Assembly: GCA_001799565.1 (NCBI GenBank)
Contig: MGTS01000039.1
Coordinates: 1-50,744 of the forward strand
DNA: 50,744 nt
Direction of reading: 5' to 3'
Source: Elusimicrobia bacterium GWA2_51_34
GTDB taxonomy: Bacteria > Elusimicrobiota > Elusimicrobia > Elusimicrobiales > UBA9959
Positions within the stretch are counted from its first letter, which is position 1. The number at the start of each line of letters is the position of its first letter. The notes beneath the pieces were generated by a model that worked only from the letters and a program-made list of their open reading frames with translations, had not been told where the DNA came from and did not search any database. The position numbers and the translations under genes were made by a program. Shown here one piece after another: positions 3,084-49,111 of this stretch.

Positions 3084-3129
3084 AACTGTTTACCGTAAAC
3101 CGAACTTCTCTAGCAAACCTTCCGGTATT

Positions 3130-3345: not shown

Positions 3346-3350
3346 TACTG

Positions 3351-15645: not shown

Positions 15646-15721
15646 GCCCCCATCGTCTAGCGGTTAGGACGCTGCCCTTTCAAGGCAGAGATCAGGGGTT
15701 CGAATCCCCTTGGGGGCGCCA
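15646..15721 (+). tRNA. tRNA-Glu (anticodon TTC), island integration site
   Basis: Complete cloverleaf: acceptor GCCCCCA/TGGGGGC, anticodon stem CTGCC/GGCAG with loop CTTTCAA (TTC), T-loop GGTTCGAATCC, and an encoded CCA (15719-15721). Bases 15672-15721 are repeated exactly at 27058-27107, so this copy marks the left end of an inserted segment. Confidence 0.95.
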
Positions 15722-15805
15722 CATTTTCAAAAGACAACCGCCGGACCTCCGGCGGTGTTTTTTTGTCTAAAGTTCGTTTTTGGCCCCCTTTGTTCTGGCG
15801 ACACA
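15672..15805 (+). repeat. Left direct repeat (att-like) of the tRNA-Glu island
   Basis: The first 50 bp, from the anticodon stem to the CCA, are identical to 27058-27107. Similarity continues through the terminator hairpin and the GTTCGTTTTTGGCCCCC block to about 15800, with scattered differences. A 50-bp core with a longer similar flank is what integration into a tRNA 3' end would leave if the element carried the tRNA end plus terminator. Confidence 0.8.
15733..15767 (+). terminator. Terminator of tRNA-Glu
   Basis: Stem ACCGCCGG / CCGGCGGT (15737-15756) is followed by GTTTTTTTG. The same hairpin follows the tRNA copy at 27121-27148. Confidence 0.85.
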
Positions 15806-16029
15806 CGCCCCCAAAAAGCCAACTTTTTAGAGCAAGTTGATTTTACATTTCTCCGACGAGAAGTGCTAAATATTTAATAGTTAACAGGTGGCATAATAAC
15901 AATGAACTAGACTCGGTTTTATATTCGGTTTCCTGACCAGAAAGGCATCAAAGCCCACCGATTTTCCCAACGCTATACACTTACAGGAGTAGTATAATGG
16001 TTTATTGGATTTGGATGGAGGTCTTACCC

Positions 16030-17568
16030 ATGTTTTCCGCCAGAGTGCTTCTCGGAGGCTTTTTGCTGGCCATAATGCCTTGTCTATGTTCCGTCGCAAT
16101 TGGTGCAGATGTTCCGAAAAAAAAGCAAGCCGCGAAATCAGTCCGGCAGCCTGTGCCCTTGGCCATATCGATCGGTGTTTTCGAGCAAAGCGTATCAGAA
16201 TACTGCGACTTTGAGTCCACGGTTCCGATCCGCACGGAATTCGATATCTACCCTACGAAAGAAGAACGCCGCTATGAATGCACGAATGAGCCACAGTTCG
16301 TTGTCAGCTCGGAAGACAAAGTGTATCAGTTTGACGTTCGCTTTAATTGGAGAACGGGTTCGCAACAGGGATATAACCTGGAAGAACTGGTCAAAACTGG
16401 GCTTTCCGATGGCTATGCGACCGCAAAAAGATCCCCCACCAAAGCTTTCAACAACTATGTTTCCAATACGAGCAAGTCTGTTAGTAGCACCCTTGAAAAA
16501 GACCCGACAGAACATATCGACACGACATTTATGGATGTGTCATTTATTTTCTGGCTTGAGGGCGATTTCATCCATATCCTCACTTTGCCCGCACAGAACC
16601 TGAAGTTGATCAAGGAAAGGAGATCGCATGTGATCTCAAGCAGAGGAGGCGCAGATCTTGCTTTAGGCAGGATGGAGGACCGCACAAAAGAACTATACGA
16701 TGCGGCATATGCCAATAACCTGGCCGCTGTCAGACTTATACTGGATGAAAGCGACCAGAACGTTAATGTGGCTTATGACGAGAACGACACTACCCCCCTC
16801 ATGCTGGCCTGCCGGCACGGCAATGAAGAGATGGCGCAGCTGCTCATCGCGAAAGGGGCCGAGATTTCAGCGGTGGATTCCGGCGGCAGACCGGTAATGG
16901 AATACATCACCATGTCCACCCCAAAATCCTATAGAAAATTACGGGCTCTTATCTTTAAAACAGCAGCCGAAAAAAAGATAGCCCTGCCTCTATCCTGGCA
17001 GGACATCTGGCTGCCAGACAACCTGCCTTATACGGCTGCCGCCACCTACCCTTCGATTCTGCCCGCTACGAACATGACGGACGGGAACCTACGGACGGCC
17101 TGGGCGGGTAAGATAGACGACGAACTCTGGCTATTTATTAACGCTGGGGCCTCGTCAATGTCAATCGTTAACGGCTATAACAAGACCCCTGCGCTTTTTA
17201 AGGCGAATAATCGGGTGACACGGCTGGCGGTATCCGTATGGGCCGCCGCGCATTTCGACGGGGACGTCTCTGAAATCGCCCGGATCTACCACGCGGCGCG
17301 GCTGACCCCCGATTATGTGATAGCCCTGAAAGACAGCGGCACCGAACAGGTCTTCGCCCTTCCGTTCAAATGGGAGGATATCGGTAAGGCAAACTCTGAA
17401 GCGCTCTCGATTCTGGTTAAAAGGGGAGACTTTAAGGGGAGGACGCTTAAATATTCTTATTTCGTGCTTCGCGCGGAGCCGGTGGAAGTTTACCGCGGCT
17501 CTAAATATGACGACACATGCATCTCCGAACTGCGGATGGGCGAGCCTTGGCAGCCAACCGAAAAATAA
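16030..17568 (+). CDS. Secreted ankyrin-repeat protein with glycan-binding-like C-terminal domain
   Basis: A 512-residue protein from the ATG at 16030, which follows GGAGG by 8 nt; an upstream ATG at 15997 has no such site. Residues 1-26 are a signal peptide ('LLGGFLLAIMPCLCSVAIGA'). A domain of unknown type fills 30-210. Ankyrin repeats cover about 215-295 ('LYDAAYANNLAAVRLIL', 'DTTPLMLACRHGNEEMAQLL', 'AKGAEISAVDSGG'). The C-terminal 170 residues ('TNMTDGNLRTAWAG', 'MSIVNGYNKTPALFKANNR', 'YDDTCISELRMG') match the pattern of discoidin-like glycan-binding domains attached to NADase-type translocation proteins. It probably acts in periplasm or outside the cell. First gene of the island; it converges with the TPR gene, 4 nt away. 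Confidence 0.75.
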   Translation: MFSARVLLGGFLLAIMPCLCSVAIGADVPKKKQAAKSVRQPVPLAISIGVFEQSVSEYCDFESTVPIRTEFDIYPTKEERRYECTNEPQFVVSSEDKVYQFDVRFNWRTGSQQGYNLEELVKTGLSDGYATAKRSPTKAFNNYVSNTSKSVSSTLEKDPTEHIDTTFMDVSFIFWLEGDFIHILTLPAQNLKLIKERRSHVISSRGGADLALGRMEDRTKELYDAAYANNLAAVRLILDESDQNVNVAYDENDTTPLMLACRHGNEEMAQLLIAKGAEISAVDSGGRPVMEYITMSTPKSYRKLRALIFKTAAEKKIALPLSWQDIWLPDNLPYTAAATYPSILPATNMTDGNLRTAWAGKIDDELWLFINAGASSMSIVNGYNKTPALFKANNRVTRLAVSVWAAAHFDGDVSEIARIYHAARLTPDYVIALKDSGTEQVFALPFKWEDIGKANSEALSILVKRGDFKGRTLKYSYFVLRAEPVEVYRGSKYDDTCISELRMGEPWQPTEK

Positions 17569-17572
17569 CCGT

Positions 17573-18592
17573 TTACTTGCAGGGCTTGTTGCTCTTTGTC
17601 GAGTTCTTCGTAGAGGAATAAAGGAATTCCCGCTTAATCTTGGGGTCCAGCGCCAGGGCCTTGTCCAGGTCGGCGGACGCGGCGGAGAAATCCCCGGCGG
17701 CGCAAGCCGCGGCTCCGCGCAGCAGGTAGGCCCGCGCCTGGTCCGGGTCCGCCTTGAAAGCTTTATTAAAATCAGCCCCAGCTTTTTCATTCTCTCCTGA
17801 CATAGCAAAAGCGTATGCCCTCTCGGCGTAGGCCGGGTAGTAGCCTGGCTCAAGCTCCAGCAGTTCCCCCCACGCCTGGGCGGCTTCATCGTATTTTTTT
17901 AGGTTTGCGCGGACACCGGCTTTTATGGCCAACCCTTTAGACTTGGCCCCGGTAAGCTCCGGCTTGTTTTTAGGCCCCGCCGCCGCAGGAACGGCTGCTG
18001 AAGCAGCGGGTTTGTTTTCAGCGGCGGACTCCTGAGCGGGTTCAGGCTTTGTCCCAACGCTGATGAACGGTTTCTTTGATGAGATAAGCCCCCTTATCTG
18101 GCGCGCGGCTGAATCGTTTTTAAGCTTCGGGTCCAGCTGAATAGCCTTGTCCAGGTCCGGTTCCGCCTTGTCCAATTGTTTGAGATTTATATATGAAACC
18201 GCCCGCAGGTAATAAGCCCGTGCATTGCCCGGCTCCAGCTCTATCACCTTTGTAAAATCGGCTATTGCCTCTTCATTGCGTTTGAGCCGGTGTAGGGCCA
18301 GGCCCCGGTCCTGGTAATAAGCCGGCGCCGAGGAATCCAGCGCGATAGCTTTGTCAAAATCCTTGAAAGCCTTGTCATGGTATTCCATGATGCCGTAGGC
18401 AATGCCGCGCTTGTGATAAAACCGGGAATCCGCGGGATACTTATTCAGCGCTTCACCGTAAATTATCACGCGCCTGTTGGAATCCGGAGCGTCCTGCGCT
18501 CGCTTAACAAATTCTTCAGGAGTCTGTGAAAATCCTGAAACCGTTTGCCCCAGCAGAATAAATGCGAACGCCGTTTTATAGATACAGCCCAT
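17573..18592 (-). CDS. Secreted tetratricopeptide-repeat protein
   Basis: A 339-residue protein from the ATG at 18592 (GGGGGA 6 nt upstream). A signal peptide covers 1-22 ('TAFAFILLGQTVSGFSQ'). TPR units occupy about 25-165 ('RFYHKRGIAYGIMEYHDKAF', 'AYYQDRGLALHRLKRNEEAI', 'NARAYYLRAVSYINLKQLDK') and again about 240-325 ('EPGYYPAYAERAYAFAM', 'ARAYLLRGAAACAAGDF'), separated by a Pro/Ala/Lys-rich linker. Each unit shows the family pattern A-x-(Y/F)-x-x-x-G...A. TPR domains bind proteins; partners are unknown. It is the last gene of a five-gene minus-strand operon, starting 2 nt past the previous stop. Confidence 0.85.
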   Translation of the reverse strand: MGCIYKTAFAFILLGQTVSGFSQTPEEFVKRAQDAPDSNRRVIIYGEALNKYPADSRFYHKRGIAYGIMEYHDKAFKDFDKAIALDSSAPAYYQDRGLALHRLKRNEEAIADFTKVIELEPGNARAYYLRAVSYINLKQLDKAEPDLDKAIQLDPKLKNDSAARQIRGLISSKKPFISVGTKPEPAQESAAENKPAASAAVPAAAGPKNKPELTGAKSKGLAIKAGVRANLKKYDEAAQAWGELLELEPGYYPAYAERAYAFAMSGENEKAGADFNKAFKADPDQARAYLLRGAAACAAGDFSAASADLDKALALDPKIKREFLYSSTKNSTKSNKPCK

Positions 18593-18593
18593 A

Positions 18594-19442
18594 CTATTCC
18601 CCCTTCTTTTTACCCGGTACTGCCAGGATTTGCTCAAGCAGGGCCTTTTCTTCGGTCCAGAAAGATATTTTACGGGCGGCTGCTATTTTATCCAGACCGG
18701 CTATTGCCGGGCGCAGCAGGCCCTCGTTTCCCGACGCCATAAGCCTGCGCGCCGCGGCCAGCCTTAACCGCCGCTCGCCCAAACCTTTTGAAATAATATC
18801 AGCCAAACCGTCAGGCTCCCCTGCGCCGGGGATATAATCCAGCGGGTTGGGCAGCCCTGCCGCGTCAAAATCAGAGAAATCACGAAAGAGCTTGCCCGTT
18901 TTAATGAGAGACAGCGTTTCCTTTGGCCACTCTCCGCCGGGATCTTTAACAACAGCGATCTTTGCTGTGGCCGGATCATAAAGGTAATACTCATCTTTTC
19001 TGGCAGAGACGTTTTTATCCGGATTGAGTTTTTTTGAATAGAACTTCCTATCCATCCAGGGAATTTTTATAAGCACCCCGTTGGACGCGGAGCGTATTTG
19101 TGAGGATTTAAAATATGTACTGGAAAGATCGGCCGCTATGCCAAGCTCCGCTATTTTTTGTGGGCCGCTCTTATCCAGTTTGAACAGGTAAACGCTCTCG
19201 AACGAGACTTTGGGCTGTCCCCCGTCGGGGAAAGCGGCTATTCCTTTTGCCGGATGATATATCCGCAATTTTAGCAGGAAATAATCCATTCCGCCGGCGT
19301 TGAAACCGGCGGAAGCGTCCAGGCTAGTGCTTGGCTCGTTTTGATAAAGAAAAGATGCCACTGCCGCCGAACAGGCCAACAGCGACATTGCCGTCACAAA
19401 TATTAACTTAAACACGGCGCGCTCCAAGAGGGGCCTACTCAA
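18594..19442 (-). CDS. Unknown secreted protein of the island envelope operon
   Basis: A 282-residue protein. The N-terminus has a signal peptide ('LIFVTAMSLLACSAAVAS', about 13-30). The next part ('NAGGMDYFLLKLRIYHPAKG', 'FESVYLFKLDKSG') looks like a beta-rich domain and the last 70 residues are helical ('GERRLRLAAARRLMASG', 'WTEEKALLEQIL'). No family is recognised. The start overlaps the end of the gene at 19435 by 8 nt and its stop abuts the start of the TPR gene, so it is translated in an operon with both. Confidence 0.65.
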   Translation of the reverse strand: MSRPLLERAVFKLIFVTAMSLLACSAAVASFLYQNEPSTSLDASAGFNAGGMDYFLLKLRIYHPAKGIAAFPDGGQPKVSFESVYLFKLDKSGPQKIAELGIAADLSSTYFKSSQIRSASNGVLIKIPWMDRKFYSKKLNPDKNVSARKDEYYLYDPATAKIAVVKDPGGEWPKETLSLIKTGKLFRDFSDFDAAGLPNPLDYIPGAGEPDGLADIISKGLGERRLRLAAARRLMASGNEGLLRPAIAGLDKIAAARKISFWTEEKALLEQILAVPGKKKGE

Positions 19443-20289
19443 AAGGCTTCCATTTGCACTGCGCCTGCCAACCGTCTTCCCTGGAAAGATAGGCCTTAAA
19501 CATGGCGGCGGCGGTCTCAGCCGCTACGGGGGCGACGCTGGTGAAATGCCCGGAAGCCTCTTTATACTGCATATCAAGTCCTTTGGCCGTGTACCCGGCC
19601 TGCATGAATCCGGCGGGACTGGTGAGAGTAATGAAGAAGTTATCGCTGCTGAGCGTACCCAGCATTTTCTTAAGTTGGTCGGCGTCTGGGGCTTCAGCCT
19701 TGCTGCCGTCGGCCATTTCAATGGAGTAACCGCTGGCGGCGGAGGCCGGCGCTTCCTTCTGCGCGGCCTTGGGCTTCTTTTTGCCGAAACCGAAGCCCAG
19801 GCCGCCGAGCTTTTCCTTCAGCATATCGCCTGGAAGCGCTCCACCGGAGGCTTTTGGCCCGGCTTTCGCTTCGGCCCCGGGTTTCACTTTGGGCTCCTCC
19901 GTTTCATATGACAGAAATTTCTTCTTCGACACGGCAGAAACGCCCATCTGCTTCCAGCCGCTCCCGGAATTAATAAGGGCCAGGGACCGGAGAGTCTTCT
20001 TATCCTTATCATCGTAATAGGCGGAAGCCTGCAAACCCATTTCGTTAGTGAAATAGCGGACCTCTTTCACCTTGCCGTCCCAGGATTGGAGAGCCTTCAC
20101 ATCCTTCTCATCAAAGACCGTTTCGTCCATGACCGACGCCACGAACGGGGCGCTGTATTTCTTCACGCCTTCAAGGTCTTTATTCTTATAGGCGGTCAGG
20201 ACTTCCTTCGCCGTTTCGGCCGCTGTTTGCGAAAACACCGGCGGCGCATAAAGAATCGATGTCAGCAGTAATGCGGTAATCAGTCTCAT
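19435..20289 (-). CDS. Unknown secreted protein of the island envelope operon
   Basis: A 284-residue protein starting at the ATG 20289, which has GGAGG 4 nt upstream; the ATG at 20307 is less likely. Signal peptide 1-20 ('LITALLLTSILYAPPVFSQ'). The first domain (about 22-130, 'AKEVLTAYKNKDLEGVKKYS', 'EVRYFTNEMGLQASAYYDDK') has the length and pattern of a small NTF2-like or DUF4878-like fold, a weak guess. A Lys/Ala/Gly-rich linker follows, then a second domain ('SDNFFITLTSPAGFMQAGY'). No catalytic motif is visible. Confidence 0.65.
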   Translation of the reverse strand: MRLITALLLTSILYAPPVFSQTAAETAKEVLTAYKNKDLEGVKKYSAPFVASVMDETVFDEKDVKALQSWDGKVKEVRYFTNEMGLQASAYYDDKDKKTLRSLALINSGSGWKQMGVSAVSKKKFLSYETEEPKVKPGAEAKAGPKASGGALPGDMLKEKLGGLGFGFGKKKPKAAQKEAPASAASGYSIEMADGSKAEAPDADQLKKMLGTLSSDNFFITLTSPAGFMQAGYTAKGLDMQYKEASGHFTSVAPVAAETAAAMFKAYLSREDGWQAQCKWKPFE

Positions 20290-20324
20290 TTTTCCTCCAG
20301 GACTCATGACGAGTCGGTTTATTT

Positions 20325-20771
20325 TTAGTAACCCACGGCAAAAGCGATCATCTGATACTCCGGGGCGCCCTTCTTGCCCGGCATGCTGACAACTATCTGC
20401 AGCGGGTCATTGCCCAGGGCCACTCCCTGAACGAATTTAACGCTGACATCCTTGCCGTTCACCTTGCGGGGCAAGGCGGGAGAGGTCATAACAGCGGACA
20501 GTTTAAGTTCCGTCATTTTGTTATTGTAAAATTCAAGAACCTTATCGGCGCTATCGCTGGTCTTGTAAATGGCCGCGTCCAGATTATCAACTTTGCCCAT
20601 TTCCACGAATTCGCTGCCAGAGTACAAAGGAACCTCATACCGGGCTATCAGTTTTTCAAAGCCCTCGCGGGATTTTTTCAGGTCTTCCGTGCTTTCCGAT
20701 TTTCCCCCGCCGCAGGAAGACAGCGAAACCGCCAACAAAAAGATGGCTGACAGGAAACTGATTTTCTTCAT
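20325..20771 (-). CDS. Lipoprotein of unknown function
   Basis: A 148-residue protein with a lipoprotein signal: 'LSAIFLLAVSLSSC', Cys20 as the lipidated residue. The mature part begins 'GGGKSESTEDLKKSREGFEK' and contains 'YEVPLYSGSEFVEMGKV' and 'SADKVLEFYNNKMTEL', a pattern shared with small periplasmic proteins that have an alpha-beta fold. It is also faintly like the DUF4892-like part of the neighbouring OmpA protein ('SVFEIFSVYKKYLKDNGFEI'). It sits 48 nt after the OmpA-PASTA gene and 35 nt before the next, so it is probably the second gene of the operon. Confidence 0.72.
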   Translation of the reverse strand: MKKISFLSAIFLLAVSLSSCGGGKSESTEDLKKSREGFEKLIARYEVPLYSGSEFVEMGKVDNLDAAIYKTSDSADKVLEFYNNKMTELKLSAVMTSPALPRKVNGKDVSVKFVQGVALGNDPLQIVVSMPGKKGAPEYQMIAFAVGY

Positions 20772-20819
20772 AGTGATCTCCTTATATTACTTTGGCGGGA
20801 ACACGCGCCCCCGCCGTTT

Positions 20820-22298
20820 TTACTTACCCACGGTAATTGACACCGTTGAGCCTTTTTTCACTCTTGTATTGGCCGCGGGCGACTGTCCCCTGATGATCCC
20901 AACCGGATTCCCGGTCTCCTGTATCTTGTAACCCTGTCCAACCAGTATTTTTATTCCATCCGCCCGCCATTGCCCGATAACATTCGGCACGGGGATGAGG
21001 GAGGCTGCCTCAGCTGCCCGCGCGTCTGCCGCCGCCTTTGCCAGCGCCGCCGCCTGGGCCTTGGCCGCCGCAAGCGCCTGTGCCTTGGCCGCCTGTGCCG
21101 CCGCAAATGCCGCCTCGGCCGCTGCTTGAGCCTCTACCGCCGCCTTAGCCCTCGCTGCCGCCTGGGCTTGCGCCGCCGCCTTCGCTGCCGCCTGAGCCTG
21201 TGCCGCCGCCTGGGTCTGCGCTGCCGAGGGCTGTCCCTGCGCCGCAACAACGGCCTCCTGCTTTATATTGAAATCCGGCACCCCGCCGGGGCCCCGGGAA
21301 CTTACAGGGGCCGGTACGGCAGCGGCCGCCGCTGCGGGGGCTGCTTCTTTCTGAGCTTTTACTATTTCCACCCGGCGGTTAAGCGCCCGGCCTGCTTCGG
21401 TAGAATTGGTGGCCAGGGGTGAAAGCGGCCCCCCCCCGTGCGCCGACAGCATACCGGCAGGAACGCCGTATTTACCGATGAGCGTCTCTTTCACGGCGCC
21501 GGCCCGGTCCTGGGCGAGCTTCATATTGTCGGCCAGGGAGCCCTCGCCGTCGGTATGGCCGACCACGTAGAACACTTCCCCGGACGCCTTAAGAAAAGCC
21601 GAAAGCTCCGCCAGGGTGGCGTCGGATTCCGGTTTTATCCCGGACTTGCCCGTGTCAAAGGTTATGCCATACATGGCAATGCGCCCTTCGGCGAGAATGG
21701 CTGCGCCTATCTTGGAGGCCGGGACCACCTGAGTATCAAGGCCAGCTGCCTGCGCCACATCCACGCGGTAACTGGGATAGCTCCACCAGCCGGAGCTGAC
21801 GTAAACTGAAACATAGAGATCCCCGGACGCGCTTTTTTTGCGGGCGGCAATATAACTGCCGCCTCTAGAGATTGGAGCGGAATTCCCCCAGCCGGGGTCG
21901 TTCTCAAAAGGATTCTGTTTGTACCAAAGGCTGCTAAAGTCTGGGCCGCAGGCCTCCTTCTCACAGGCAAATACGATTTCAAAACCATTATCCTTAAGAT
22001 ATTTCTTATAAACCGAGAATATCTCAAAAACGCTGTTTTTCTCGGTGGCTTTGTAGAGGATCGCGGATGTTTTCCCCTCCAGCGTTGTTACAGAGCTTAT
22101 CAAGCCTTTTTCAGACGGCCCGGCGGCGAAGTTATAGCGGCCGTAGTTGACAGTTTCATTGTGATGGACGCTGGTGTTTTCAATCGGCCGGACCAGTTCC
22201 TGCGCCCAGTTAAGCTCATCAGCCCCCAATGCCGGTATGGCAAGAACCGCCGCCATAAATAAACCCGCCATAATATTGATCATTTTTTTGAAACACAT
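20820..22298 (-). CDS. OmpA-family protein with DUF4892-like, Ala-rich and PASTA regions
   Basis: A 492-residue envelope protein starting at an ATG with GGAGG 6 nt upstream. Order: signal peptide (1-25); a DUF4892-like domain (about 30-190); an OmpA peptidoglycan-binding domain (about 205-315, 'MYGITFDTGKSGIKPES', 'FYVVGHTDGEGS', 'NMKLAQDRAGAVKETLI', 'ALNRRVEIV'); a ~110-residue Ala/Gln/Lys-rich segment (about 320-430) that is probably a long helix; and one PASTA domain (about 430-492, 'VPNVIGQWRADGIKILV', 'VKKGSTVSITVGK'). OmpA and PASTA parts both bind cell wall, so it probably links outer membrane and peptidoglycan. It heads the five-gene operon. The combination with PASTA is uncommon. Confidence 0.85.
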   Translation of the reverse strand: MCFKKMINIMAGLFMAAVLAIPALGADELNWAQELVRPIENTSVHHNETVNYGRYNFAAGPSEKGLISSVTTLEGKTSAILYKATEKNSVFEIFSVYKKYLKDNGFEIVFACEKEACGPDFSSLWYKQNPFENDPGWGNSAPISRGGSYIAARKKSASGDLYVSVYVSSGWWSYPSYRVDVAQAAGLDTQVVPASKIGAAILAEGRIAMYGITFDTGKSGIKPESDATLAELSAFLKASGEVFYVVGHTDGEGSLADNMKLAQDRAGAVKETLIGKYGVPAGMLSAHGGGPLSPLATNSTEAGRALNRRVEIVKAQKEAAPAAAAAAVPAPVSSRGPGGVPDFNIKQEAVVAAQGQPSAAQTQAAAQAQAAAKAAAQAQAAARAKAAVEAQAAAEAAFAAAQAAKAQALAAAKAQAAALAKAAADARAAEAASLIPVPNVIGQWRADGIKILVGQGYKIQETGNPVGIIRGQSPAANTRVKKGSTVSITVGK

Positions 22299-22722
22299 AA
22301 TGTCCCTCCTTGATAATCACATCGATACCCACGGTACCAACGAGCCTGTTAAGTCATCACTAATTCGGAGTCACTGAGGTTGCGGTTTTCCTAGAATAAA
22401 TAATAATGAAACAACCCCGCGCAAAACCCTGCTTAATATTACTATTTTTAAGGCTTTGAACGAAAAATAAATGCAATTTCGAATCCCGCTGGCCCCTAAG
22501 TAGACGGGATTCGAAATTTTGAGGTTTACAGGGCTCCAGGGGCCGCTGAGAGGAGTTTTTCACCCGCTTGGCCGATGATTCTGAAGAGGTCTAAAGTGAG
22601 TTCAAAGGCAGGTATAAAACGGGTTTCCCCTATGAAGGGCGAATCTAAAAAGTTAGTTTTTGGCCCCCGTTGACCGCGCCAACTTCTTCAAAAAAACAGC
22701 CCGTTTCGGGGCTAGTTTTTTT
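22299..22722. other. Intergenic region, no gene seen
   Basis: The gap holds the 22475-22518 palindrome, a copy of the GTTAGTTTTTGGCCCCC block (22658-22674) seen at both island ends, and a terminator-like hairpin AGCCC/GGGCT followed by AGTTTTTTT (22698-22721, plus strand). No ORF is convincing. Confidence 0.5.
22475..22518. repeat. Palindromic repeat (AATTTCGAATCCCG arms)
   Basis: Perfect 14-bp arms AATTTCGAATCCCG and CGGGATTCGAAATT flank CTGGCCCCTAAGTAGA. Related copies lie at 31781-31822 and, eroded, at 40089-40113. Confidence 0.75.
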
Positions 22723-22877
22723 GGCGCCACAAAGCGGAACATAATTATGTTCCGCGCGGGGATTCGAAAGCCGGACCTGCGGAGCGAGCACGCGGAGCAG
22801 GGAGGCGGGGTCGCGACCCTTGCACGGCGACGGCCGGGCAAGGAGTTGTGACCTAATCCCTCCCCCACCAAGGCGCC
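22723..22877 (+). other. tRNA-tail structured element, copy 1
   Basis: A 155-bp element with GGCGCC at both ends. It has a perfect 22-bp hairpin (22734-22755, arms GCGGAACATAA/TTATGTTCCGC), then a GGGGATTCGAAAGCCGGACC block, a GCGGAGCGAGCACGCGGAGC block, GCGGGGTCGCGACC, and near the end TGTGACCTAATCCCTCCCCC followed by ACCA. GGGATT and AATCCC can pair. The order of blocks matches the elements at 48607-48753 and 48987-49111. The last ~18 bases look like a tRNA T-arm plus acceptor end with CCA, but no such tRNA is in the window. Confidence 0.6.
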
Positions 22878-22885
22878 AATTTCAG

Positions 22886-22914
22886 CTGATTTCTCGTCGA
22901 GAAATCAGTTTTTT
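22886..22914 (+). terminator. Strong terminator after tRNA-tail element 1
   Basis: Perfect stem CTGATTTCTCG / CGAGAAATCAG with TTTTTT on the plus strand. No plus-strand gene precedes it, so the structured element at 22723-22877 may itself be transcribed. Confidence 0.75.
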
Positions 22915-22967
22915 GTCTATCAGACCCAAATCACAAGAATTCCCCAAAAAAGCCCGTTTTTACCCCA

Positions 22968-22993
22968 AAGTGCACACTCAAGTGCACACTTTC
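22968..22993. repeat. AAGTGCACAC direct-repeat motif, left of the primase cassette
   Basis: AAAGTGCACACTCAAGTGCA followed by CACTTT: two AAGTGCACACT units 13 nt apart. A near copy lies at 26933-26958 on the other side of the primase-helicase and AAA genes. Confidence 0.6.
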
Positions 22994-23164
22994 CGTTCGC
23001 AAAAAAGTGATTTTCCCAATGGGAGGTCTGTGCCAAACCGAGGCAGAGATCTATTTCTTCTGTTCGAATAACTACCAATATTCTGGTAATCAGCGGTATT
23101 GTGTTCAGCTGTCTGTTCCGGGTGACAACATTTGCCCTCAGGAATGGACATTCCCTTCGGGGCA

Positions 23165-24703
23165 CTATATCCCCGGCAAAAGCTGTTCATCTTCGCTGAC
23201 AACGGCATAGCCAAGCATCTTATAAGTTTTCAAACGCTTCCTATGCATGTTAGCCAGAACAGATACCCCGGAGTCCACATAATCGTAGATTACTACATTT
23301 GTTTTATCCACGTGCTGCCTGTGCAATCGGCCGGCATATTGGACTATTTTTCCTTTGAACGAGGCTGGCATTGTCAAAAACAATGTATCCAACCGGGGTT
23401 CATCAAATCCCTCGCCAATATAAGAACCGGTAGCGAGGATGGCTTTGCGGCAATTATCAGGATAATGCTTCAACTCTTCAAATATTTCACGCCGTCTCTT
23501 CTGGCGCAAGCCGCCGTAAAGCACAGCCAGAAAATCGGTCTTATCTTTCAACAGAGTCTCAAGAGCGAGCAAATGCTCACGCCGCTCGGTTAGAATAAGC
23601 GGAAAACGTCCGGCGCTCAAAACTGCGTCGATGTCCTTTAAAATCTGCATGTTGCGCCGCTCATCAGCGGTCAGCTTCGGCCAAAGCTCCTGAATTTTCG
23701 AGTTATCATTCCATTCGGCGGCGAAATCGGTACGCCTCACCATAACTTTAGAATTTGGCGCGCAGGCAAGCGAGTCCGTATCTTTTATCCGGTGGATTAC
23801 CGGACCGCATTGCATATGTATTATGGACTGATGTCCGTCCCGTCTGTATGGAGTCGCAGTTAAACCAAGAACGAATTCAGCTTTAACCTGGCTTAACACT
23901 TTTTCAAAAGAAGCCGCCGCGACATGATGGCACTCGTCCATGATTACAAAACCATATTCCGCCACACGATCATCAACGCCTTCGACTAAATCCAGGCTTT
24001 GTACCATTGCGACATCAATTACGCCTGTGGATTTGTTTTTACCGCCGCCTATCAGGCCGACATCTTTTTTATCTATACCGAGCAAGGCGGAAATCTGGAG
24101 CCGCCATTGTTCCATAAGCGGTCTTCTATGCACAAGAATAAGCGTATTAACCTTACGGCGCGCCATTGCCGCGATGGCAATCACGGTTTTACCAGAACCG
24201 GGAGGCGCGGAAAGGACGCCGAAATCAACGGGAAGAATATCGTCAAGTGCCGCTTGTTGCAACGGATTTAATGTTCCAAGGAAATTGTGGTCTATCTTTT
24301 TACCGGGGAACCGCTTGTTTTCAAGATTCAGTTTTACGCCGTACTCGGACAACACTACTTTCATATCTTCCAGGCAGCCGCGCGGCATTGAAAGCCAGCC
24401 TGCATCCAATTCGGCGCAGCAGATTATCCGCGGAGTGGCATGAGTCGAAAATCGCATCTTCTGTTTTTTATAAAACTCCGGATTGTGAAAAACCGCCAGA
24501 TGTTTGAGCTGGTTTATAAGCGCGGAAGGAATATTCTCTGTTTTAACATAAACTCTGTTCGACAGCACAACCTCGATAATGGCAGGCAGATCATTAATAT
24601 TCACATTAAACCGCTTTTTGCCGGACGGAGGCCTAGTCCAAGGCTCGTCTTCCTCATCTATCGGACTCCAGCGGGCCGGTATCCTGCCTCCGGTCTTTTC
24701 CAA
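23165..24703 (-). CDS. TOTE-type primase-helicase, helicase fragment (frameshifted gene)
   Basis: A 512-residue ORF that begins in the middle of a larger protein: 'EDEPWTRPPSG' (about 18-28) is the usual linker between primase and helicase in this family. Superfamily 2 helicase motifs are intact: Walker A 'APPGSGKT' (166-173), 'VIMDECHH' (DECH box), 'GLTATPYRRDG', 'ILATGSYIGEGFDEP' and 'QYAGRLHRQ'. It would couple ATP hydrolysis to nucleic-acid remodelling. Reading 24703-24800 in the same frame gives 'INEAGVPYP' and 'SQWAYLASVKKLSRAETESL', the expected continuation of the primase ORF that ends at 24796. Restoring one base near 24800 would fuse both into a protein of about 800 residues. The family belongs to biological-conflict (defence) systems. 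Confidence 0.82.
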   Translation of the reverse strand: MEKTGGRIPARWSPIDEEDEPWTRPPSGKKRFNVNINDLPAIIEVVLSNRVYVKTENIPSALINQLKHLAVFHNPEFYKKQKMRFSTHATPRIICCAELDAGWLSMPRGCLEDMKVVLSEYGVKLNLENKRFPGKKIDHNFLGTLNPLQQAALDDILPVDFGVLSAPPGSGKTVIAIAAMARRKVNTLILVHRRPLMEQWRLQISALLGIDKKDVGLIGGGKNKSTGVIDVAMVQSLDLVEGVDDRVAEYGFVIMDECHHVAAASFEKVLSQVKAEFVLGLTATPYRRDGHQSIIHMQCGPVIHRIKDTDSLACAPNSKVMVRRTDFAAEWNDNSKIQELWPKLTADERRNMQILKDIDAVLSAGRFPLILTERREHLLALETLLKDKTDFLAVLYGGLRQKRRREIFEELKHYPDNCRKAILATGSYIGEGFDEPRLDTLFLTMPASFKGKIVQYAGRLHRQHVDKTNVVIYDYVDSGVSVLANMHRKRLKTYKMLGYAVVSEDEQLLPGI

Positions 24704-24795
24704 TTCGGCAACCAGCGATTCCGTTTCAGCACGCGAAAGCTTTTTAACAGAGGCCAGATATGCCCATTGACTAGGGTAGGGAACGCCGGCTTCGT

Positions 24796-25563
24796 TTATA
24801 AGACACTATTACCGGCAAGCACAGCCTCTTTTTGCAGCGGCAAAGCTATAAGATTTCCGAATCCGCCCTGAGGCATTATATCCTGATTAGGAAAAAGCCT
24901 GTCATAGCTTTTCATGGCGAGTTGGCAGCGTTTCACCATAGTTTTGGATATAAGACAGGTTCCAAGCCGCCTGGCCAGGGAAGCGGGAACTTCTTCGCTA
25001 AAAAATACCCAGACATGCCCGCCGTTACCGGAACGGGAACGCTCCACGGCGACGAGAACTTTCTCAAAAACGCACGCTTCCCTGATAGCGGCTATATCCT
25101 CAAGCCAACTGTCCCCATCAAAATCCATTGCGAGAAAAAAGCAAGTGTCATTGCTTAACAAAGGATAAACGCCAGCCACGAGTTCACCTTCTAAATGTTT
25201 ATAAACTGTGTTTTCATTAAAAGGCAGGAATTCCCTGTTTTGACAATCGGCGCAGCGCAAGGCCGGCTTGCGGCACAATACTCTATCCCATTCATGCTTG
25301 CAGGCCGGGCTGTAGCCGCTTTTTCCAGCACGGCTTTCCCAACGTCTGGCATAAACATCCTCACGGCCACGGAGACGACTTCTGAATAATGAGATTTTTT
25401 CTTCAGGGGAAAACTGTTTTGTTATTTTTGGCGGCAAATCCGGATATTCAGCCGCAGAAAGTGTGGTAAGATACTGCCGCTTAAGTTCGGCCAAAACGGC
25501 GATTTGAGAATCTATTTTTGAAACTTCTTCAGCAAGTTTGTTCCTGTCGAAGGATTCGCTCAT
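24796..25563 (-). CDS. TOTE-type archaeo-eukaryotic primase fragment (frameshifted gene)
   Basis: A 255-residue ORF. Residues 30-75 hold 'EEKISLFRSRLRGREDVYAR', the family N-terminus; Cys88/97/104/107 form a probable Zn site; the primase catalytic core has 'FLAMDFDGDSW' (D147, D149) and 'SRSGNGGHVWVFF' (H183), ending 'RLFPNQDIMPQGGFGNLIAL'. This is the AEP domain of the TOTE conflict group. The ORF ends abruptly after 'GNSVL' because GTCTTATAA lacks one T relative to the expected GTCTTTATAAAC. The helicase half continues in the next frame. This is a recent inactivation, a sequencing or assembly error, or less likely programmed frameshifting. The next gene upstream is the AAA/DUF4143 ATPase, 36 nt away. 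Confidence 0.82.
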   Translation of the reverse strand: MSESFDRNKLAEEVSKIDSQIAVLAELKRQYLTTLSAAEYPDLPPKITKQFSPEEKISLFRSRLRGREDVYARRWESRAGKSGYSPACKHEWDRVLCRKPALRCADCQNREFLPFNENTVYKHLEGELVAGVYPLLSNDTCFFLAMDFDGDSWLEDIAAIREACVFEKVLVAVERSRSGNGGHVWVFFSEEVPASLARRLGTCLISKTMVKRCQLAMKSYDRLFPNQDIMPQGGFGNLIALPLQKEAVLAGNSVL

Positions 25564-25599
25564 AAGTCCCGGGTATTTATAGTGACGACATAATCTCTT

Positions 25600-26811
25600 T
25601 TATTGCAGGATTCTTTCAGGACTTTTGAAAAAGTCTTCGAGTTTTAGTGTTAATATACCGTTGCGCCCGTGGGAATCGCCGATAATAAGCCCTGTTGCGT
25701 CTTTATTGTGCGACAGAAAAGCACATAGGGCTCCGGTTTTAGCAATATTCCCGGACTTAACCTCTATCGCAAGTATCTTTTTTCCTATTTTAAAAATATA
25801 GTCCACTTCCTCGTCCCGCTCGCGCCAGTAGAACAGCTCACCGCCGCTTTGCTCAGCCAACGTGACAAGCGCCGCCCCCACAGCATTTTCGACAAGCCGT
25901 CCGCGCCAAACGGAGTTCTGCAAATCTTCGCCGCCGGACGGCAGTGTCATGGCATTAGCCAGGCTGTTGTCCCGCAGGATTATTTTAGGGATAGAACCGC
26001 GCTGCCTGATCTTGTTTCCGCTCCACCGCTGAAGCGTGGACAACAAATACGCAGCCGACAAAAGATGTAAGTAATGCGCTATGGTTGTAGTATTGCCGGC
26101 ATCTGAAAGCTGCCCCATCATTTTTTGAAAACTCAGAATTTGGGCCGGATGCGCGCATGCCACTCCAAGCACCTGCCGTAAAAGAGCCGGCTTTTGCACC
26201 GGAGACATCAACAGGACATCTTTTCCCACTACCGTTTCCACAATCGAATCGCGTATATACCTGCCCCACCGGGCGTAATCCCCATTTAAAGGAATCGCAC
26301 CGGGATAGCCGCCGAAAATAAGGTAATCCTCTAACGTCAGACCGAAACATTCATGACATTCGGAGTATGTCCAATGTGGAAACCGATGTAATTCAAAACG
26401 ACCTGTAAGACTTTCGCTAAGCCCGCGCTGAACAAGCAAAGCTGATGAACCGAGTAAAAGAATTTTTATCCTGATTTTGTTCCGCTTATCCTCATCCACC
26501 AGTTTTTTTATCGTTTCGCTCCAGCCGGTTATCTTTTGTACCTCGTCCAGAATCAAAAGTACAGATTTATCTTTCACCACCATGACTCTGGCGGCATTCC
26601 AATGCGCTTCAATCCATGCTGTTGATGGAATGGCTGGTTTATCGGCAGCTTCATACAAAGACAGCCCGTGCCACGCGTCTTTCAAGTGCAGAGCGAGAGT
26701 CGTTTTGCCTACCTGTCTTGGCCCAGAAATGACCTGTATCGGGATATGCCCATCCTGAAGAGCTTTCAAAACGGGGCCATAGTAATTTTTACGCACAAAT
26801 TCTTTAGCCAT
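25600..26811 (-). CDS. AAA ATPase with DUF4143 C-terminal domain
   Basis: A 403-residue protein. Walker A 'SGPRQVGKTTLALHL' (about 29-43), Walker B 'VLLILDEVQK' (about 84-93) and sensor 'LLLGSSALL' mark an AAA_14-type ATPase. A small winged-helix part follows ('ILSFQKMMGQLSDAGNTTTI', about 225-245), then the DUF4143 nuclease-like fold with 'ENAVGAAL', 'LFYWRERDEEVDYIF' and 'ILAIEVKSG', i.e. D, E and K of a PD-(D/E)XK-type site. Family members are common and mostly uncharacterised. It heads a two- or three-cistron unit with the primase-helicase, and a near-perfect palindrome lies just upstream. It is probably part of the same conflict or mobile cassette. Confidence 0.88.
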   Translation of the reverse strand: MAKEFVRKNYYGPVLKALQDGHIPIQVISGPRQVGKTTLALHLKDAWHGLSLYEAADKPAIPSTAWIEAHWNAARVMVVKDKSVLLILDEVQKITGWSETIKKLVDEDKRNKIRIKILLLGSSALLVQRGLSESLTGRFELHRFPHWTYSECHECFGLTLEDYLIFGGYPGAIPLNGDYARWGRYIRDSIVETVVGKDVLLMSPVQKPALLRQVLGVACAHPAQILSFQKMMGQLSDAGNTTTIAHYLHLLSAAYLLSTLQRWSGNKIRQRGSIPKIILRDNSLANAMTLPSGGEDLQNSVWRGRLVENAVGAALVTLAEQSGGELFYWRERDEEVDYIFKIGKKILAIEVKSGNIAKTGALCAFLSHNKDATGLIIGDSHGRNGILTLKLEDFFKSPERILQ

Positions 26812-26845
26812 GCTAAAATTCTACCAATGCAAACAGGGCTTGTCA

Positions 26846-26875
26846 ACAAATTACTCAATCCATTGAGTAATTTGT
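26846..26875. promoter_or_regulatory. Palindromic operator-like site upstream of AAA/DUF4143 gene
   Basis: Perfect 14-bp arms ACAAATTACTCAAT and ATTGAGTAATTTGT around a CC centre, 35-64 bp upstream of the ATG at 26811. With no T-tract toward the gene and a position in the promoter zone, it is more likely an operator than a terminator. Confidence 0.65.
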
Positions 26876-26932
26876 ATTGAACAATCTTTATACGACAATT
26901 TTATTTATACGCACATGGCCAATACCGATAAA

Positions 26933-26958
26933 AAGTGCACATCGAAGTGCACACTTTT
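26933..26958. repeat. AAGTGCACA direct-repeat motif, right of the primase cassette
   Basis: AAAAGTGCACATCGAAGTGC followed by ACACTTT: two AAGTGCACA units, same orientation as at 22968-22993. The two copies bracket the conflict genes. Confidence 0.6.
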
Positions 26959-27057
26959 ATGTATACCATTTTTCTATTCCACCGCTACCAGCATAAATAA
27001 AGTGTTATGTATTAAGGACTTTTCAGGGTTTATGGGGAGGTATAATTCCGAATATCA

Positions 27058-27107
27058 CTGCCCTTTCAAGGCAGAGATCAGGGGTTCGAATCCCCTTGGG
27101 GGCGCCA
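27058..27107 (+). pseudogene. 3' fragment of tRNA-Glu, right end of island
   Basis: Fifty bases identical to 15672-15721 (3' anticodon stem, variable loop, T-arm, acceptor strand and CCA), without the 5' half of the tRNA. Similarity continues into the terminator and the GTTCGTTTTTGGCCCC block. It is the attR-like partner of the intact tRNA. Confidence 0.85.
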
Positions 27108-27120
27108 ATTTCAAAAGACA

Positions 27121-27148
27121 ACCGCCGGACATGCGGCGGTGTTTTTTT
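27121..27148 (+). terminator. Copy of the tRNA-Glu terminator
   Basis: ACCGCCG / CGGCGGT stem followed by GTTTTTTTG, as at 15737-15764 with changes only in the loop. Confidence 0.75.
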
Positions 27149-27154
27149 GTCAAA

Positions 27155-27209
27155 AGTTCGTTTTTGGCCCCCCTTGTCAGGCTGCCACAACACTCCCCAA
27201 AAACGAACT
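27155..27209. repeat. AGTTCGTTTTTGG palindromic element at island right end
   Basis: Perfect 13-bp arms AGTTCGTTTTTGG (27155-27167) and CCAAAAACGAACT (27197-27209). A decayed copy lies at 15771-15826 and a half copy at 22656-22674. Confidence 0.7.
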
Positions 27210-27338
27210 ATTTATTTCCGGCCTTTAGCTATCTTTTCATTGAGAGCTTTGGCTTTTATGGGAGTGCGGAAGCGGCAAGATTCCATATTTATCCGGCTTA
27301 TCGACCAAGGGTAATGGCCCATTTTGCCTGTAATAAAT

Positions 27339-34210: not shown

Positions 34211-34876
34211 ATGTCACGCATAGCCAGGGTAGTAGCGCCGGGATATCCGCATCATATTACACAACGCGGGAACAGGCGGCAGAAAACTTTCTTTAACGAC
34301 GGAGATTTTAAGCTTTATCTTCAGTTAATGAAAGAGTGGTGTGAAAAATGCGGGGTTGAAATCTGGAGCTATTGCCTTATGCAGAATCATTCCCACCTGG
34401 TGGCCGTGCCGCGGGATGAGGCTGGCTTAGGACGCGCAATAGGGATGGCTCACTGGCACTATACCCGCCTTATCAACACCCGGGAGGGATGGAAAGGCTG
34501 TTTGTGGCAAGGGCGGTTCGCGTCCTATATCATGGATGAGGCCTATCTTTGCGCCGCAGTCCGATATATTGAATATAACCCGGTGCGCGCGGGTCTTGTT
34601 GCGCATCCTTGCGAGTACCCCTGGAGCAGCGTCAACAGCCGCCTTTCAGGGCAGACGGATCTGCTGGCTCACCCGGTGCGATTGAACGAAATTCTTGCCT
34701 TGCGGGGGCCTCTTGCGGATTGGGATTTAAAAAAAGAGGAAATAAATATAATAAAAAAGCATTCCTCAACAGGGCGTCCGCTTGGAGGGAAAGAATTTAT
34801 TGCCGCTTTGGAAGGCAGCCTGGGGCGAAGTCTGGCTAAACAGCGTCCAGGCCCTAAAACCAGAAAACGGAATTAA
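34211..34876 (+). CDS. REP-associated tyrosine transposase (RAYT, Y1_Tnp/HUH family)
   Basis: A 221-residue protein starting at the ATG with AAAGGAGG 5 nt upstream; the frame extends further 5' but without a better signal. Family marks: 'PHHITQRGNRRQKTFFND', 'YCLMQNHSHLVAVP' (the HxH metal motif of the HUH fold), 'WQGRFASYIMD', and 'YIEYNPVRAGLV' near the C-terminus of the domain. RAYTs are single-copy transposases that act on REP palindromes. The gene is flanked on the left by a full REP-like palindrome (34061-34114) and on the right by a half site that provides its stop codon. A further full copy is at 31841-31893. Confidence 0.93.
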   Translation: MSRIARVVAPGYPHHITQRGNRRQKTFFNDGDFKLYLQLMKEWCEKCGVEIWSYCLMQNHSHLVAVPRDEAGLGRAIGMAHWHYTRLINTREGWKGCLWQGRFASYIMDEAYLCAAVRYIEYNPVRAGLVAHPCEYPWSSVNSRLSGQTDLLAHPVRLNEILALRGPLADWDLKKEEINIIKKHSSTGRPLGGKEFIAALEGSLGRSLAKQRPGPKTRKRN

Positions 34877-39827: not shown

Positions 39828-40035
39828 AAAGTCTCCTTGTGCGCCTCGGCAAATAACCGCCAAGGCCAGAAAGTAGCTGACTAAGAGAACCACACCCGCA
39901 GGAATGGCTGTAATTAGCGGCAGGCAGCAGCACGATCAGCGTATAAAAGAAAAAGCCGCCGTCCGGTAACTTAACCGTAGATGGCGGCCCGACCATCCCA
40001 ACCTCCGAAGCGATAACTACCTGCTCCGGACCCTT
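39828..40035 (-). promoter_or_regulatory. Long structured leader of the trehalose operon, possible attenuator or riboswitch
   Basis: About 200 nt separate the promoter from the otsA start. In the transcript, TCCGGAGC pairs with GCTTCGGA (40029-40003; one G-U) over an 11-base loop, and then comes GCCGCC...GGCGGC plus TTTTTC (39989-39950), an intrinsic-terminator shape with an inner CGGT/ACCG hairpin. The rest, up to AAGGAGA, has no ORF. I do not recognise a known riboswitch class. Confidence 0.5.
39950..39989 (-). terminator. Terminator-like hairpin inside the trehalose leader
   Basis: Stem GCCGCC / GGCGGC with a 22-nt loop carrying CGGT...ACCG, followed on the minus strand by TTTTTCTTTT. It lies about 125 nt upstream of the otsA start codon. 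Confidence 0.65.
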
Positions 40036-48155: not shown

Positions 48156-48508
48156 ATTTCCTCCAGGAAAGGCCGATTGACAGAAACAACGGTGATCGAT
48201 AACCGGTAAATAGCCTAAGATTTAAGTATTAGTTTTTTTAATACCTTTTAATTGTACTACTTTTAGAGAGGGACACGAGCGCGGGCGGCAGTATTTTTTT
48301 GGGTTTGTTTCCGCCACAAAGCGTTGGGGTTCTTCATCACGTCTTCGGCGAGCCCGCCGTAAAGTAGTGGCGGGGACCCGCCGAAGAAGTGTGGCGGGAA
48401 TTTTTGCTATACTGTAAACGGCAGTAATCGGTATCCGGCAGTCCGCTAATTGGCAAAAGAAGTTCCTGAAACTGATTACTGACCACTGTTCACTGATTAC
48501 TGACTAAT
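48156..48508. other. Intergenic region upstream of hypC, no gene seen
   Basis: It contains a 92-bp hairpin element (48309-48400) and a GTAATCGGTATCCGG-type array (48423-48508) leading up to tRNA-Tyr. No convincing ORF. Confidence 0.5.
48309..48400. repeat. MITE-like hairpin element
   Basis: Outer inverted repeats TTCCGCCACA and TGTGGCGGGAA, inner pair TCTTCGGCG/CGCCGAAGA, followed by TTTTT. The left end resembles the start of the tRNA-tail element at 22723 (GGCGCCACAAAGCG). Confidence 0.55.
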
Positions 48509-48592
48509 GGTTGGGTGGCTGAGCGGTCAAAAGCAACGGTCTGTAAAACCGTCGGGCTATGCCCTACGCAGGTTCGAACCCTGCCCCAACCA
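48509..48592 (+). tRNA. tRNA-Tyr (anticodon GTA)
   Basis: Acceptor GGTTGGG/CCCAACC, anticodon stem ACGGT/ACCGT with loop CTGTAAA (GTA), long variable arm as expected for bacterial tRNA-Tyr, T-loop GGTTCGAACC, discriminator A. CCA not encoded. Confidence 0.95.
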
Positions 48593-48606
48593 TACGCTCT
48601 TTATAA

Positions 48607-48753
48607 GGTTGGGAGCGAGACAACTGCTTGTCTCGCGGCAGGGTTAGAAAGGCGGAGCGTTGCTGAGCGAGTACGCGAGGCCGCGAGCCGGGGTCGCGAG
48701 TTCAGCCGAACGACGGTGAGGCTGAAACTTGTGACCGAACCCTGCCCCAACCA
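48607..48753 (+). other. tRNA-tail structured element, copy 2 (mimics tRNA-Tyr)
   Basis: Begins with GGTTGGGA, the first bases of tRNA-Tyr, and ends with CGAACCCTGCCCCAACCA, the last 18 bases of that tRNA. Between: hairpin with arms GCGAGACAA/TTGTCTCGC, then GGCAGGGTT (pairs with AACCCTGCC at the end), AGAAAGGCGGAGCG, GCTGAGCGAGTACGCG, GAGCCGGGGTCGCGAG and TTGTGACC. The acceptor-like ends (GGTTGG/CCAACC) also pair, so the whole folds into a multi-branched form. There is no anticodon arm. Confidence 0.65.
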
Positions 48754-48756
48754 TTT

Positions 48757-48845
48757 CAAGCTAGTCACAAGACACAAGTGGCAAGTCACAAGCAAGAGAT
48801 GACTCCAAAAAAACTTGTGACTTGTGACCTGAGACTTGTGACTTC
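48757..48845. repeat. Inverted GTCACAAG word array
   Basis: AGTCACAAGACACAAGTGGC (48763-48782) is complementary to ACTTGTGACTTGTGACCTGA (48813-48832). A 23-nt stretch starting CAAGCAAGAGATGACTCC recurs at 49144. Confidence 0.65.
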
Positions 48846-48850
48846 TTATT

Positions 48851-48934
48851 GGGCGGGTGGCGGAACTGGCAGACGCGCACGGCTCAGGACCGTGTGGCCG
48901 TAAGGCCTTATGGGTTCAACTCCCTTCCCGCCCA
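48851..48934 (+). tRNA. tRNA-Leu (anticodon CAG)
   Basis: Acceptor GGGCGGG/CCCGCCC, D-arm GCGGAACTGGCAGACGC, anticodon stem CACGG/CCGTG with loop CTCAGGA (CAG), long variable arm, T-loop GGTTCAACTCC, discriminator A; CCA not encoded. Confidence 0.95.
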
Positions 48935-48942
48935 TTAAATTT

Positions 48943-48980
48943 AAAAAGGCTGTTCGCTTTCATTGCGGACAGCCTTTTTA
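48943..48980 (+). terminator. Terminator of tRNA-Leu(CAG)
   Basis: 15-bp stem AAAAAGGCTGTTCGC / GCGGACAGCCTTTTT with one G-T pair; T-tract on both strands. Confidence 0.85.
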
Positions 48981-48986
48981 ATTACA

Positions 48987-49111
48987 GGCGGGAAGCAAGA
49001 CAATAGTTTGTCTCGCGCAGGGAGTTGAAAGGCGGACCGAAGGAGCCAGCAGGCGGATTCGGGAGCCGGGGTCGTCCGCCTAAGGCGGATGACCAACTCC
49101 CTTCCCGCCCA
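48987..49111 (+). other. tRNA-tail structured element, copy 3 (mimics tRNA-Leu)
   Basis: Starts GGCGGGAAG and ends CAACTCCCTTCCCGCCCA, identical to the last 18 bases of tRNA-Leu(CAG) just upstream. It has the same inner blocks as copy 2: hairpin GCAAGACAA/TTGTCTCGC, GGGAGTT (pairs with AACTCCC), GAAAGGCGGACCGAAGGAGC, CAGCAGGCGGA, GGGAGCCGGGGTCG, then a GTCCGCC/GGCGGAT hairpin and GACC. Confidence 0.65.

Follow-up and report, generated by a model that had tools for sequence, protein, structure and literature searches.

A candidate family of small non-coding mobile elements in the T-loops of tRNA and tmRNA genes of Elusimicrobiota and Patescibacteria, with guide arms fitted to the host tRNA

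Short structured repeats behind tRNA genes of Elusimicrobia bacterium GWA2_51_34 appear to belong to a family of non-coding, non-autonomous mobile elements of ~160-200 bp that insert into the T-loops of tRNA and tmRNA genes and copy the target into their own guide, a reading to which we give a probability of roughly 0.6. Three members, at 48607-48753, 48987-49111 and ~22723-22877, lie in the window, by which we mean the whole stretch of 50,744 nucleotides that was analysed (contig MGTS01000039.1). An initial annotation of this DNA had picked out the shared blocks, their order and their coordinates, all of which were borne out by a check of the sequence; it missed the key feature, complementarity to the tRNA. 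The 'acceptor-like 5' bases' that it described are the complement of the acceptor 3' strand and not a copy of the 5' strand, and its 'half T-stem' is the reverse complement of tRNA nt 57-64, T-loop bases included, rather than a copy of the 5' T strand. A derivation of the arms from a copied tRNA 5' half or a duplicated tRNA gene is ruled out: the arms complement the 3' strand, include T-loop bases and run past the tRNA end.

Read 5' to 3', an element comprises tRNA nt 57-73, a spacer, a complement of the acceptor strand, a hairpin (P2), an 8-nt guide against nt 57-64, a three-way-junction core with the consensus GAAAGSCGGA...GAGSCGGGGTCG...TGACC, and a second tRNA 3' end (Table 1). The spacer is variable in content and often resembles the hairpin of an intrinsic terminator, and the acceptor arm, complementary to the acceptor 3' strand, sometimes extends beyond the tRNA end into the flank in Patescibacteria (L105, L115). 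Behind the 8-nt arm follow GAAA, stem P4 (GSC/GSC closure with a GGA/GA internal loop), GG, and stem P5 (GGTCG...TGACC), which leads into the second copy of nt 57-73; the helix between guide and downstream copy forms the three-way junction together with P4 and P5. Some elements are without the hairpin or without the acceptor guide. A palindrome running through the flank to the terminator is clear at L099, L115, L119 and L176 but weak on average (5.6 vs 4.5), and we do not claim it as a general trait. The tRNA copy at the downstream end had been given as 18 exact bases; the copy is indeed exact, but the unit is 17 nt (nt 57-73), the eighteenth base being C56, which is common to both. In the same way the extents first assigned to the elements hold for the part that they cover, but the inserted unit also takes in the upstream tRNA 3' end and the spacer. 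No integrase gene was found in the unit, whose ~160-200 bp leave no room for a gene, and no conserved ORF was seen next to it.

Table 1. Positions of host tRNAs and element parts in the window, and of the second and third element kinds at other loci (L, locus; G103, a Yonathbacteria genome)
Feature	Position	Strand	Basis or remark
tRNA-Glu(TTC)	15646-15721	+	ARAGORN; matched by the guide of the third element; attachment site of its island
Third element	22723-22877	+	P2 22734-22755; guide 22758-22765; core 22766-22853
tRNA-Tyr(GTA), host gene	48508-48593	+	ARAGORN, sequence; nt 57-73 = 48576-48592 = upstream 3'-end copy
Tyr unit, spacer TACGCTCTTTATAA	48593-48606	+	Non-native flank; native flank reappears 3' of the downstream copy
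Tyr element, acceptor guide GGTTGGG	48607-48613	+	Complement of tRNA-Tyr acceptor 3' strand; sequence, fold
Tyr element, hairpin P2 between guide arms	48615-48636	+	Fold
Tyr element, 8-nt T-arm guide	48639-48646	+	Complements tRNA-Tyr nt 57-64 at 7/8
Tyr element, conserved core GAAAGGCGGA...GAGCCGGGGTCG...TGACC (P4 and P5 of the three-way junction)	48647-48736	+	Core pattern, covariation
tRNA-Tyr nt 57-73, downstream copy	48737-48753	+	Read from congener comparison as the chromosome's own earlier 3' end, shifted by the insertion
tRNA-Leu(CAG), host gene	48850-48935	+	ARAGORN; nt 57-73 = 48918-48934
Leu unit, spacer with intrinsic-terminator-like hairpin AAAAAGGCTGTTCGC...GCGGACAGCCTTTTT	48935-48986	+	Kept in G002 beside a truncated element remnant
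Leu element, acceptor guide GGCGGGA	48987-48993	+	Complement of tRNA-Leu acceptor 3' strand; sequence, fold
Leu element, hairpin P2	48995-49016	+	Fold
Leu element, 8-nt T-arm guide	49019-49026	+	Exact complement of tRNA-Leu nt 57-64
Leu element, conserved core with short P5	49027-49094	+	Core pattern, fold
tRNA-Leu nt 57-73, downstream copy	49095-49111	+	Sequence
Second element kind	L039:4337-4480; L076 ~1310-1440; L091; L095		L076: tRNA strand
Third element kind, nested, G103	L245:2183-2359; L250:10582; L260:16308; L268:19322
Third element kind, standing alone, G103	L246:16427; L260:9970

The position of the insertion emerges from the tRNA-Tyr locus, at which two congeners (G001 and G002) are without the element. 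In G002 the tRNA runs directly into TTTCACTCTAGTCACAAGACACAAGTG, the flank that in GWA2_51_34 is found 3' of the downstream copy; because the element-free locus joins the tRNA to the flank that follows that copy, the alignment shows, on sequence grounds, that the chromosome's original 3' end is now the downstream copy and that the upstream 3' end and spacer arrived with the unit, joined exactly at the C56/G57 junction. The unit shown to sit at this junction runs from tRNA nt 57-73 through spacer, acceptor guide, hairpin and T-arm guide to the core, and after its insertion the tRNA upstream is intact while the original 3' end lies displaced downstream, giving the direct repeat that marks tRNA-site integrative elements. 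At tRNA-Arg(TCT) both congeners are empty and GWA2_51_34 holds two elements and an inserted element of a second kind, and the tRNA-Leu of G002 is followed by a remnant consisting of the terminator and a truncated acceptor arm. Runs of a CACTTGTGACTTGTGAC-type repeat at 48766-48842, beside the Tyr site, occur in the same place in G001 and G002.

The third element of the window had been thought to fit a tRNA outside it. Its guide is instead the exact complement of nt 57-64 (GAATCCCC) of the tRNA-Glu at 15646, its GGCGCC flanks fit the end of that tRNA, and its downstream end is degenerate and tRNA-Glu-like (..AATCCC..GGCGCCAATTTC). The element lies inside an 11.4-kb island (15646-27214) at tRNA-Glu(TTC), bounded on the 3' side by a tRNA-Glu 3'-half copy at 27058-27214; the resulting 160-bp repeat (tRNA 3' half plus flank) is 89% identical. 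Genes of the island encode an AEP-TOTE primase (24796-25563), a ResIII/DEAD helicase (23165-24703), an AAA_14/DUF4143 ATPase, an OmpA-PASTA protein and an ankyrin protein, and Pfam identified no integrase among ten proteins, nine of which the island encodes. Elsewhere in the window, an nhaA-I riboswitch candidate occupies 39979-40033 on the minus strand.

Further copies were sought in the 2.63-Mb GWA2_51_34 genome with the core pattern GAAAGSCGGA...GGGGTCG, which gave eight exact matches against 0 for the reversed-pattern control, and with a covariance model, as the initial annotation had suggested, which gave twelve. The host tRNAs are Ser(GCT), Arg(TCT), Met, Val(TAC) (two in tandem), Tyr, Leu(CAG) and Glu(CTC); among the other matches, one follows a 3'-half copy of tRNA-Met, another lies within the tRNA-Glu island, a third is interrupted and a fourth is inverted beside the Arg copy. 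All twelve are found behind tRNA genes or tRNA fragments or inside another element, and not at random positions with fixed ends. Tandem arrays (L041, L048, L099, L151, L176, L301) and insertions of one copy inside another speak for movement and, together with the empty sites of the congeners, support the initial suggestion of a non-autonomous element that targets tRNA 3' ends.

Several variant arrangements accompany these copies. Elements of the second kind share the core, carry a self-contained 5' hairpin (GGACCGGCTTTAGAGC...CCGGTCC) and sit inverted within tRNA-type elements; at two sites such an element takes the place of a CG dinucleotide. In the Yonathbacteria genome G103, a third kind (AGCGAATACNTGGAGCTTCGCAAG...) occurs both on its own and nested in other elements, between their stems P4 and P5. 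Additionally, two Met-type elements at L040 (G000:C30, ~1900-4060), separated by 2 kb, enclose a 3'-half copy of tRNA-Met in an arrangement that resembles a second small tRNA island, and at L263:6830-7632 a tmRNA gene is followed by two tandem elements matched to the tmRNA 3' end.

The strongest indication of target copying comes from the guide itself. In the 129 elements that are preceded by a tRNA, the 10-nt guide (nt 57-66) matches its own tRNA at 8.3 of 10 positions and the tRNAs of other amino acids at 5.7 of 10, the corresponding values for the downstream copy are 8.2 and 5.4, and the acceptor arm scores at least 6 in 45% of own comparisons versus 6% of others. We then compared 117 pairs of elements with near-identical cores (at least 85% identity) behind tRNAs with different 3' ends, counting those positions from 57 to 64 at which the tRNAs differ: at 198 such positions, in pairs that are not independent of one another, both guides fit their own tRNA 186 times, one guide 12 times and neither guide 0 times. 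Because 186 of 198 differing positions fit the own tRNA between near-identical cores, rewriting of the guide for each target tRNA is strongly supported by these alignments, and simple inheritance of a fixed guide does not give this result. The earlier suggestion that the ends are taken from the target tRNA or adapted to it gains strong support from the same rewriting and from the matched ends. Guides are not always perfect: of 1032 positions at which the two copies of the tRNA 3' end are in accord, the guide disagrees at 171, most of them within nt 63-66; greater conservation of the guide than of the downstream copy is unsupported, the guide decaying more at these nucleotides. At positions where the downstream copy no longer matches the tRNA, the guide agrees with the tRNA in 28 cases and with the copy in 6, and since there is little mutual compensation between copy and guide, their pairing may matter only at insertion.

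The same data bear on the possibility that the elements are satellites of an ordinary tRNA-site integrase, in which case a tyrosine or serine recombinase encoded elsewhere would cross over in the T-loop and duplicate the 3' end, and the inverted arm would be an attachment-site arm or a hairpin selected later. A T-loop insertion that directly repeats the 3' end is just what integrase islands produce, as in Dehalococcoides, whose islands enter ssrA in mid-T-loop with a 20-bp repeat (PMC3146451), and the GWA2_51_34 genome contains two larger islands, one at tRNA-Glu and one at tRNA-Met. Islands such as that at ssrA also share with the elements an intact gene rebuilt upstream and tandem accretion (PMC3146451). 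However, an integrase rewrites no internal inverted arm for each tRNA, yet near-identical cores have differently fitted guides; all isotypes and tmRNA are used in one genome; and the core is conserved as RNA, its G.U pair included. The elements further differ from such islands in their size of ~160-200 bp, the lack of integrase and cargo, the use of nearly every isotype in one genome, the structured RNA core and the rewritten inverted arm. We therefore consider the satellite reading unlikely, although it is the most probable of the rivals to a target-copying element.

The core is conserved in structure. The three window elements fold much better than their dinucleotide shuffles, with z-scores of -7.1, -6.7 and -6.3. 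Across 50 diverse members, 92% of cells pair and 14 of 23 pairs are changed on both sides, with a covariation score that 0 of 500 shuffles attain; 49 distinct matches outside the model set gave 91% pairing and 17 pairs changed on both sides, again with 0 of 500 shuffles, in a set drawn from other genomes and loci save for a few G103 copies and in an alignment fitted to the model, which favours the result. The G.U pair after GGTC is kept in 50/50 members of the model set and in 48/49 of the outside set, and a second core position is G.U in about half of the members. Within the three-way junction a bulged A is conserved and a G.U pair adjoins the joint, and the unit, if circular, is predicted to be rod-like. 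Because the covariation is strong and the G.U pair is kept, and G.T gives DNA hairpins no gain, we infer that the core strand acts as RNA at some stage.

Such covariation would also suit a regulatory or tRNA-like RNA of the host—a decoy, a processing guide or a sensor of tRNA dosage—that pairs with its own tRNA through the complementary arm and is kept for its function. The tRNA-like 3' end, in which acceptor and T stems frame a hairpin, and the tendency of the guide to follow the tRNA where the downstream copy differs (28 vs 6) are consistent with this reading, and the 'tRNA-mimicking RNA' or 'decoy' of the initial annotation is possible. A host function accords poorly with the patchy occurrence of the elements, seen even among congeners, with empty sites and remnants, as well as across the phylum, with their tandem and nested copies, and with the decay of the guide itself at nt 63-66. 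It seems to us quite improbable, and more so than an integrase satellite.

Turning to distribution, matches were found in 78 of 248 sampled Elusimicrobiota genomes, in five families, and in 20 of 192 sampled Patescibacteria. A control phylum gave 0 of 149 sampled genomes, a run with stricter filters whose empty result alone proves little. When named genomes were scanned, the informative names among the matches listed were Elusimicrobia and Patescibacteria, besides chance matches and one Hydrogenedentota contig. The chance matches include one labelled 'Oscillospiraceae' (L138), from the phylum that supplied the control sample, and a phage or virus origin was likewise rejected, the sole IMG/VR hit being a chance match. 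The Hydrogenedentota MAG contig (L212) carries one Val-type element very like the Elusimicrobia copies, the only one in 4.5 Mb and likely a case of mis-binning.

The densest occupation is that of G103, a member of the ultra-small Patescibacteria, with ~37 elements in a genome of ~0.74 Mb. Here 22 of the 38 t(m)RNA genes in ~667 kb, tmRNA included, carry an element directly downstream; seen from the elements, 22 of 37 lie directly behind a t(m)RNA gene (~0.4% expected by chance), nine are chained behind another element and six are unlinked, some of the latter adjoining apparent decayed tRNAs. Members from small Elusimicrobiota genomes of a second family obey the same rule of placement behind tRNAs. 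Chance similarity of the elements is ruled out by the core-pattern scan with its reversed control, the fold z-scores, the match to own versus other tRNAs and the placement in G103.

For the manner of insertion we propose a scheme in which the core RNA, or its single strand, would bind a recombinase or nuclease supplied in trans, the unit having no gene of its own. The guide would anneal to the strand carrying tRNA nt 57 onward, beside the universal TTC of the T-loop; GAA, the first bases of GAAAG, is complementary to this TTC, and their pairing would extend the guide-target duplex to 11 nt at any tRNA. Once the strands are joined, the new tRNA 3' end could be copied into the terminal copy and the guide arms by synthesis or heteroduplex repair on the target strand, with P2 looped out meanwhile. 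Since the tRNA is restored, insertion would do the host no harm, and the new copy would be fitted to its own tRNA. A more far-reaching version, which we regard as tentative and on balance doubtful, is that of a guide-only genetic parasite: structured RNA or single strand would find the T-loop of a tRNA gene by base pairing and, at each insertion, overwrite its guide arms with sequence complementary to the new tRNA, so that one core spreads over nearly all tRNA and tmRNA genes with the host unharmed.

No mobilising enzyme was found among the reverse transcriptases and Y1 transposases searched for in ten element-bearing genomes. Reverse transcriptase (RVT_1, PF00078) is absent from nine of them and Y1_Tnp from four (G032, G264, G199 and G256, with 6-12 model matches each), absences that rule out either enzyme as a common mover. 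The window holds a Y1_Tnp (REP/IS200-type transposase) gene at 34253-34576, one of six in the GWA2_51_34 genome. The scarcity of RVT_1 also weighs against a ribozyme-like or retro-element, which would enter pre-tRNA by reverse splicing at the C56/G57 junction and be integrated as cDNA, in the manner of group I and II introns or retrozymes. The conserved three-way junction with its bulged A, the G.U next to the joint, the predicted rod-like circle and an insertion that is silent for the host tRNA would all be in keeping with such a route, but Rfam recognised no group I, group II or self-cleaving family in the elements, and reverse splicing alone leaves the new inverted guide unexplained. Of the readings weighed here we hold this the least probable.

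Against this background, the proposed target-copying element shares single traits with several known systems. Bacterial repeats of the MITE and REP types are small, non-autonomous hairpin repeats with nested and tandem copies; the elements resemble them in all these respects but use a single target class, the T-loop of tRNA and tmRNA genes, and have target-matched arms and RNA covariation that includes G.U pairs. In the omega RNAs of TnpB and IscB, the guide directly adjoins a structured scaffold, lying 5' of it in IscB, and its content varies with the insertion site. The elements likewise place a guide that changes with the site directly beside, and as in IscB 5' of, the scaffold, but no nuclease gene adjoins them, and instead of plain flank their guide repeats the tRNA 3' end in inverted form, with a hairpin interrupting it. 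CRISPR-associated transposons were reportedly found by Saito and colleagues in 2021 to home to tRNA genes by means of a delocalized crRNA. A review describes such homing with guides that complement sites beside the tRNA genes (PMC11656645). Here, too, an element lies beside a tRNA gene with a short guide complementary to a site there, but it consists of guide and scaffold alone and the guide changes with the target; no Cas genes, Tn7 genes or CRISPR repeats were seen beside the elements within the window. Finally, IStrons and mobile group I and II introns (PMC4227781) combine insertion that is silent for the host gene with a catalytic or structured RNA and an internal guide that pairs with the target, whereas the elements show no intron core by the Rfam models, rebuild the host gene instead of interrupting it, and have a rewritten guide.

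No Rfam family matched the elements in cmscan runs at gathering thresholds or at permissive E-values, group I and II introns, self-cleaving ribozymes and HEARO included, which rules out identity with a known Rfam RNA; the tRNA model RF00005 matched true tRNAs only and left the elements unmatched. The open-access papers searched yielded no described family with this layout, so that the same statement in the initial annotation holds for Rfam and for the literature searched. Because neither source gave a match, we regard the family as probably undescribed, with a small but real chance that an earlier description exists outside the literature searched.

Known guided elements have one fixed guide or take their guide from the flank; the rewriting of an internal inverted guide from the target would, if true, be a new principle. 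It would mean that a few hundred non-coding bases colonise essential tRNA genes in two phyla, with the guide re-tailored for each target, which would bear on the evolution of tRNA genes in genome-reduced bacteria. If true, the family would also offer a clear test system for the origin of guides, and it could open the way to a recombinase or RNA-guided enzyme of a new kind.
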